Shown: one piece after another, positions 19,930 to 21,337 of the stretch | Layout of the letters: every line of letters starts with the position of its first letter | How positions within the stretch are numbered: the stretch's first letter is position 1 | NCBI GenBank assembly: GCA_031279675.1 | Contig: JAITIB010000038.1 | Coordinates: 1-37,165, forward strand | DNA length: 37,165 bases | DNA from: Puniceicoccales bacterium | GTDB taxonomy: Bacteria > Verrucomicrobiota > Verrucomicrobiia > Opitutales > UBA953 | Reading direction: 5' to 3' | Position numbers and translations under genes: made by a program | The notes under the pieces: model-generated | The model's input: only the letters and a program-made list of their open reading frames with translations | The model's database searches: none | Told to the model about the DNA's origin: nothing

Positions 19930-20697
19930 CTACACATTTGCCGCCGGCACCGCATTTTCGACCTCCTCCGGCTCCTCCCCCTGCGCCTTCCGCGCCCTGC
20001 GCGCCGCCGCCCGCTGCGCGATCAACGCATGGAAGTGTTTGATGACCCGGTTGAGCGCGCGCACGCCACTGTTCAACGACCCCGGCGCCACCAGCCCATT
20101 GCGCGTGTCCACACTCTGCATGAACTCCCGGTAAACCTCGTTCATCGCCCCCCGCGCCTTCCTGACACTGATCGTGGGCCGCGCCACCTTTTCCTCATTT
20201 CGCTGCATCGAGAGGCTCTTGTACCGCGCCTGCGCATCCCCCAGCATCCCCACCAGACCCGTCAAATCCAGCAACGCCACCTCCGGCGCAACATCCGCGC
20301 GGTGCAAATCACTGAGCAGATTATCGATCGTCCCCGTCCGCTGCGCCCGAGACACCCCCGTCAAACTCCCATAATGCGCGAGCAGATTGCGAAGACTCAC
20401 CGCCGCCGCGTGCCGCGCCGCGTCCGGATCGTGAAGACTGCACCGGATGCGCAGGATAAGATTCCTGTGCAACGCCGCCCGCATCCGGTCCGTCCCACGG
20501 ATATGCGCGGTCAACGCACTCTTGCGCACCACCTCAAGCGTGTGCAACAGCGTCTCAAAGCGAGATTTGAACACCGCCCACAACGGAGCAAAGTGCTCGC
20601 TCACCCCAAAGTTCTCCGCCGTCACAATGGTCTGGCTCATGAACGTATGGTATTCCTCGTTACGCAATGAAGGCAGATGGATCGTCTTTATTTGCAT
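19930..20697 (-). CDS. DUF6261-like protein, function unknown
   Basis: ATG at 20697 giving MQIKTIHLPSLRNEEYHTFMSQ...; mostly helical; the LRNEEYHTFM N-terminus and ...ARYKSLSMQRNEEKVARP... region resemble DUF6261 proteins known mainly from Bacteroidota (recognised from memory, not searched). Ends in a basic RAAARRARK then acidic tail. ORF-track start 20748 runs into the repeat region. Confidence 0.72.
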   Translation of the reverse strand: MQIKTIHLPSLRNEEYHTFMSQTIVTAENFGVSEHFAPLWAVFKSRFETLLHTLEVVRKSALTAHIRGTDRMRAALHRNLILRIRCSLHDPDAARHAAAVSLRNLLAHYGSLTGVSRAQRTGTIDNLLSDLHRADVAPEVALLDLTGLVGMLGDAQARYKSLSMQRNEEKVARPTISVRKARGAMNEVYREFMQSVDTRNGLVAPGSLNSGVRALNRVIKHFHALIAQRAAARRARKAQGEEPEEVENAVPAANV

Positions 20698-20780
20698 CGT
20701 ATCTCGCAGCTTGACTTGAACATGCGATTGTTTTTTGGGGAAAACCACGCCGTGGACAAGCCCTTTTTGAACTCAAAACG

Positions 20781-21149
20781 ACCTGCTCCTGCCGAGCACA
20801 TTCCAAAAATATTTTTTTCGCACCTGCTCCCCGCGAGCAACTCGCTCCCAAAAATAATTCGCATCCGCTCTTCCAGAGCAAGTCTGACAAAAAAATTATT
20901 GCCATTTGCTCGCCACGAGCAAGTCACTCAAAAATATAAGCGGCACCTGCTCCAAAAGAGCAAGTCCCGCAAATTTTTTACACCAACTTGCTCTCAGCGA
21001 GCAACTCTCCAAAAAATTTTGGCCACACTTGCTCGCCACGAGCAAGTAGCTTCCAATTCAAAATGGAATTTGCTCGCGGCGAGCAAGTCCAAAGCATTTC
21101 CAAAAGCTCCTTGCTCTTCGCGAGCAAGCATGTAAAAAAAATCCCCGCG
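20781..21149. repeat. Periodic array of nine 41-bp hairpin units (GCTC-N5-GAGC core with variable AT-rich segment)
   Basis: The TGCTC/CGCTC core begins at 20784, 20825, 20866, 20907, 20948, 20989, 21030, 21071 and 21112, exactly 41 bp apart each time. GCTC-N5-GAGCA is present in 9/9 units. Confidence 0.95.
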
Positions 21150-21190: not shown

Positions 21191-21337
21191 CCAGTTATGG
21201 AGTGCGGGACTTCAGTCCCGCTTTGGAGCGGGGGATTCATCCCCCGCGTCCCCGGACAAGGACAACGCCCCGGATGGACAAACGGCGATGAATCGCCTTC
21301 GCGAAAGCGGCGATGAATCGCCGCACTCCATAACTGG
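21191..21337. repeat. 147-bp palindromic MITE/REP-like element
   Basis: Perfect 17-bp terminal inverted repeats CCAGTTATGGAGTGCGG...CCGCACTCCATAACTGG, with internal mini-hairpins gcgggacttcagtcccgc, gcgggggattcatcccccgc and two copies of ggcgatgaatcgcc. Confidence 0.85.

Follow-up and report, generated by a model that had tools for sequence, protein, structure and literature searches.

The window analysed here, a stretch of 37,165 nucleotides from a Puniceicoccales bacterium, carries a gene of the DUF6261 family and, immediately 5' of it, an array of short inverted repeats, which raises the question of whether the two are parts of one system and in what form the array acts. The original prediction proposed such a two-part system and named three options for the array: a long structured 5' leader, a regulatory operator array, or a separate non-coding RNA that is a partner of the protein. 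The gene occupies positions 19930 to 20697 on the minus strand, with its ATG at 20697 and its stop at 19930, and encodes a protein of 255 residues that is a true member of DUF6261 (PF19775), matching the profile with an E value of 6.4e-27 and 94.8 bits (curated cut-off 27), in agreement with the family, proposed as "DUF6261-like", and with the start position of the original prediction. The AlphaFold2 model, built on an alignment of 42 sequences, is all-helical and has no strands (mean pLDDT 93.4, pTM 0.75), which confirms with high confidence, as a prediction, the helical protein that was thought probable. The predicted structure has no recognisable DNA-binding fold, the comparison of two DUF6261 models with solved folds gave nothing below E 0.001, and a sequence search of solved structures with the protein found no relevant match. 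PADLOC, NCBIfam and PHROGs offer no credible family for the protein, and neither nuclease and transposase profiles nor toxin-family profiles match it. The basic C-terminus, from which nucleic-acid binding had been argued, is a peculiarity of the window protein (pI 10.2) and no family trait, the family being on average mildly acidic (mean pI 6.4 over 43 members), and the argument does not generalise.

DUF6261 is rare and patchy, and it is often multi-copy where present. It is found in 2 of 60 near relatives, the window's own genome included, in 4 of 295 genomes of the phylum (3 of them above the curated cut-off) and in 5 of 297 Bacteroidia, the centre genome included, with 16 matches in a congener (G005) and 3 to 20 per genome in eleven Bacteroidota genomes. 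Viral contigs and plasmids contain none, and the phage records with the domain are two short unannotated human-faecal contigs. Among the neighbours of ten DUF6261 genes, those with a recognisable family are mutually unrelated, and DUF6261 therefore has no conserved operon partner. No paper that ties DUF6261 to repeats was found in the open-access literature.

The array is built of nine 17-bp dyad sites, TTGCTC-N5-GAGCAA, located by pattern search at 20783 to 21127 (no strand assigned), which start at 20783, 20824, 20865, 20906, 20947, 20988, 21029, 21070 and 21111, in exact steps of 41 bp. The inner GCTC-N5-GAGC units (n = 9) run from 20785 every 41 bp to 21113 with zero exceptions. When up to two mismatches are allowed, the 17-bp pattern has 11 matches in the window, 9 of which are the array, against 1.74 expected, and 0 of 100 shuffles reach that number. 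A tenth in-phase dyad of other sequence, CCACG-C-CGTGG, is read at 20745 to 20755 on the gene side (no strand assigned), and its centre at 20750 is exactly 41 bp from the centre of the first unit at 20791; the degenerate unit suspected near 20740 is thus real, having kept phase and symmetry and not sequence. The linkers between the sites (20800 to 21110, no strand assigned) are variable and rich in A/T tracts, and because loops and linkers vary from unit to unit the exact spacing is not merely the result of recent duplication. There is no clear gene between the array and position 21191, as had been noticed, and the next gene is LemA, from about 21457. A palindromic, MITE-like element is present at 21191 to 21332, with the flanks CCAGTTATGGAGTGCGG and the exact inverse CCGCACTCCATAACTGG, and a related sequence sits between array and gene at a locus of the congener (L005).

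The association of gene and array extends well beyond the window. About 110 DUF6261 genes (112 distinct open frames) from Verrucomicrobiota and Bacteroidota were surveyed, and in 88 of the 105 with enough upstream sequence the strongest self-similarity by autocorrelation is at 40-44 bp or double that distance, compared with 53 of 451 control windows whose maximum falls in this band; 60 of the 105 upstream regions are above the 99th percentile of these controls. At a fixed threshold, which was applied to the 87 genes with at least 1 kb of upstream sequence, a 40-44-bp array is found upstream of 70 genes and on either side of 75, six genes having a downstream array and five of these only a downstream one. 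The same threshold is passed by 19 of 949 windows of Draconibacterium orientale, cis arrays included, and by 2 of 178 windows of a congener without DUF6261. Twelve of the 87 loci have no array at the threshold, four of which show weak 42-43-bp periodicity. Short or broken dyads are frequent in the arrays, which makes a strict palindrome-chain detector less sensitive than autocorrelation; it places 42 of 106 beyond the 99th percentile of its controls. Four further genomes, held out, gave a clear array at 11 of 13 testable loci, one extra locus being masked by N. The two outcomes that were to make the linkage coincidental, homologues generally lacking arrays and arrays occurring as widely without the gene, are both contradicted by these counts, and the proposed two-part arrangement is supported. 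At one locus (L039), array and DUF6261 gene are separated by an ORF that by eye resembles the GxxExxY family.

Some of these genomes do have tandem repeats of similar period elsewhere, so the arrays could be thought merely common near DUF6261 genes. This coincidence is refuted by the survey and retains practically no credence, since 70 of 87 genes stand against about 2% of control windows, the held-out loci agree, and the half-sites of arrays in trans match those of the cis array.

The arrays have a constant geometry and a variable sequence. The period is 41-43 bp across unrelated sequences, and each array has about 4-10 dyad-symmetric sites of roughly 17-18 bp. Over 83 arrays, complementarity about the best centre averages 0.69, compared with 0.53 in column-shuffled arrays, and 69% of the 83 are individually symmetric at p < 0.05. 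Around the same axes the symmetry carries on in the linker, where it peaks at 0.327 (against 0.25), and only at the exact half period. The dyads are locus-specific, for example TTCCGCG-N3-CGCGGAA, TTTCCGC-N4-GCGGAAA and CTTGCGACCCGGGTCGCAAG, and vary among paralogues, while period and symmetry persist. The more similar two proteins are, the more similar their arrays tend to be (Mantel r 0.32, p 0.001), with alike arrays mainly above a protein similarity of about 0.6. One array (L042, in G351) contains two palindromes with the inner arms GCATC..GATGC and GCGGC..GCCGC and a common outer arm, a mixture that is possibly a specificity change in progress.

Arrays with the half-sites of a cis array are also dispersed in the same genomes, as far as samples and pattern searches, on which the genome-wide array counts rest, can tell. 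The window genome, in which one DUF6261 gene was found, has three nine-unit arrays with a common half-site: that of the window, one on contig C96 (7286-7630), between apparently convergent genes, and one on contig C103 (5894-6238), 3' of a serine acetyltransferase gene. All 27 units have an unchanged TGCTC/GAGC core around a variable loop, and at one linker position, 18 bp away from the dyad, 96% of them have T. A two-unit pattern has 23 matches in this genome and 0 in 8 congeners. A search of G005 with one cis half-site gives 63 occurrences, compared with 3 of a control pattern, on about 17 contigs and at multiples of 42 bp; in D. orientale one such half-site occurs 10 times against 2 for the control and recurs at three other array-like places. 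Ten trans arrays were compared (five from D. orientale, two from the window genome and three G005 copies of one family), and for nine of them the best match is a cis array from the same genome, whereas the tenth, from D. orientale, is closest to one from a related species, D. aestuarii. The copies of the G005 array family share a leader of about 200 bp and a tail of about 60 bp at many loci with unrelated flanks and are up to about 95% identical, and because of these near-identical copies, with leader and tail amid unrelated flanks, the family is inferred to have spread recently. This conservation was found in one G005 family, other families not being covered. The trans arrays of the window genome, and largely those of D. 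orientale, have half-sites in common but little of the linker sequence, which gives them the appearance of old arrays maintained by selection and not of recent copies.

Other arrays of the window genome were noticed beside these. A second 42-bp family, around CCTTCCCCCnTTCCAACGGCGATAAAACCGGCAACGA, abuts both trans arrays (5608-5888 on C103 and about 7640-7900 on C96), and no cognate DUF6261 gene for it was found in this roughly 80% complete genome. A third array, of 41 bp, with AAGGAGCGCGGGAATTTTTTTTGCTCCTTCTTACACGTTAGA, is located at 4095-4270 on contig C16, at the contig end.

Double-stranded DNA sites bound by DUF6261 dimers are favoured over an RNA leader, in the absence of binding data, and the regulatory operator array is the best fit among the three options first considered. 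The reasons are the lack of a G.U preference, the arrays that lie downstream or far away, the period that equals four turns of B-DNA, the equal folding of both strands, and the array periods of D. orientale, which over 1.46 Mb cluster near 21 bp (14), 42 bp (18) and 63 bp (4), with 1 in other bands. If the array were instead transcribed as a chain of hairpins that partners the protein, as a 5' leader or as a separate RNA, or acted as single strand, complementary arms and stable folding would be accounted for, and the window array does fold far better than its shuffles, but it does so on both strands equally (z -9.5 and -8.8). The 86 within-array cells with changed yet complementary pairs do not settle the matter, since they fit hairpins or a dimer with altered specificity alike. 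RNA stems in gene sense should tolerate G.U over A.C, and while the window array's own stem mismatches in that sense are mostly of the G.U type, across 84 arrays G.T mismatches number 82 and A.C mismatches 106 (p 0.09), so there is no sign of RNA pairing and no positive support for a separate RNA partner. A leader is further disfavoured by the five genes with downstream-only arrays, the intervening ORF of L039 and the distant arrays, and any hairpin RNA by arrays in trans and between convergent genes, by half-sites that are fixed while loops vary, by a period in DNA helical turns and by an Rfam scan of the window without a match. An RNA partner thus appears improbable, though it is not ruled out.

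What is observed is that genes and arrays are linked, that the sites are dyads at a fixed period, that cis arrays match trans arrays in three genomes, and that protein and array diverge together; these observations are best joined, with a confidence only a little above even, in a mechanism in which DUF6261 genes anchor two-part loci and a DUF6261 dimer binds its own phased dyad arrays in cis and in trans. Binding and function are unproven, and the support for binding is only indirect, consisting of the half-site identity between cis and trans arrays and of the co-divergence. Each DUF6261 gene would have a private family of intergenic arrays, one in cis and the others dispersed, whose half-sites the dimer is inferred to recognise. 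Dimers may load cooperatively along one face of the DNA and would at the cis array control their own gene and at the dispersed arrays regulate, organise or mark, the role of bound arrays being undetermined. As a protein diverges, both half-sites of all its units would change symmetrically, so that paralogues of the same genome would become mutually orthogonal. Autoregulation with action at dispersed sites is the first choice, and it has weak points: certain trans arrays are flanked by convergent genes, where an operator would hardly be expected, and the Bacteroidetes promoter motif (-7) is not enriched between array and ATG. More broadly, and held only tentatively, DUF6261 would represent a new class of proteins that bind arrays sequence-specifically and build phased nucleoprotein assemblies at private sets of chromosomal addresses, with orthogonal pairs of paralogue and array and with arrays able to spread.

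The main rival of autoregulation takes this spreading as the function itself, the arrays being non-autonomous dispersed elements which DUF6261, with host factors, mainly copies or maintains and does not use for gene control; it is compatible with DNA binding and differs in the main function. It is modelled on the REPtron, which consists of a TnpA-REP (RAYT) gene, encoding an HUH nuclease with a catalytic tyrosine, and of cognate dispersed REP/BIME palindromes preceded by a conserved tetranucleotide, most often GTAG (PMC8266576). DUF6261 loci have this layout and meet the criterion of a gene adjoining its own family of palindromic intergenic repeats, with dispersed cognates and families that differ by paralogue, and the G005 copies indicate recent copying, to which the patchy distribution in Bacteroidia and in the phylum and the 3-20 paralogues per genome may be added. 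The HUH criterion is not met, however, since the protein is modelled as all-helical, has neither that fold nor a catalytic motif and matches no nuclease or transposase family, and the sites are strictly phased dyads of about 17-18 bp every 41-43 bp. A tetranucleotide of the REPtron type is not evident in the 27 units of the window genome, without a systematic test, terminal inverted repeats and target duplications were not seen, and the trans arrays of the window genome, and largely those of D. orientale, with little linker sequence in common, look old. Spreading as the main function is therefore considered unlikely, though clearly less so than the RNA partner, and regulation by bound dimers remains preferred.

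Other known systems resemble the DUF6261 loci in part. Phased arrays of operator or centromere-like sites are bound by dimeric proteins, and type III toxin-antitoxin loci have a repeat array 5' of a small gene for a ToxN-fold endoribonuclease. The former share helically phased dyads and an array adjacent to the gene whose product presumably binds it, whereas DUF6261 has no known DNA-binding fold and occurs as 1-20 paralogues, each with its own site, binding being inferred. The latter likewise have tandem repeats directly 5' of a short gene, but the ToxN criterion is not met by an all-helical model without a toxin profile match, and DUF6261 arrays are also downstream or in trans and lack a wobble signal. 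In Bacteroidota, the intergenic BrickBuilt and MITE464/PgRS elements of Porphyromonas gingivalis have internal 23-nt or 41-nt tandem repeats and 10-20 copies per genome, BrickBuilt also having a leader and a tail; terminal inverted repeats, a criterion of this type when shared with an insertion sequence, are reported for these elements, and no partner gene is described (PMC4596501). Internal repeats with a conserved leader and tail are met in one G005 family, while dyads, half-sites and paralogue-specific families are undescribed for these elements (PMC4596501). No inverted ends are seen in the alignments of G005 copies, the ends not being sharply bounded and no insertion sequences having been compared. 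These P. gingivalis minisatellites may be relatives of the DUF6261 arrays. Because the known kinds fall short on those defining features that were tested, the system is rated as new in kind, its biochemical role being undetermined.

DUF6261, a family without known function, gains a strong partner in a DNA array that changes in sequence with the protein and keeps its geometry. If the pairing is direct, one genome could contain as many as about 20 orthogonal protein-DNA address systems, which would help in studying the evolution of DNA recognition, and a partner gene would be in place for a class of phased tandem repeats found in Bacteroidota and Verrucomicrobiota, similar-looking examples being so far described only as gene-less minisatellites. 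Away from DUF6261 genes, D. orientale also has intergenic direct-repeat arrays of 21-bp period, at 42421, 1119589, 3609140, 4014336, 2502430 and 287695, which may mark the ends of IS21- or Tn7-like elements or belong to another phased system, and several of these 21-bp-period arrays flip orientation midway.
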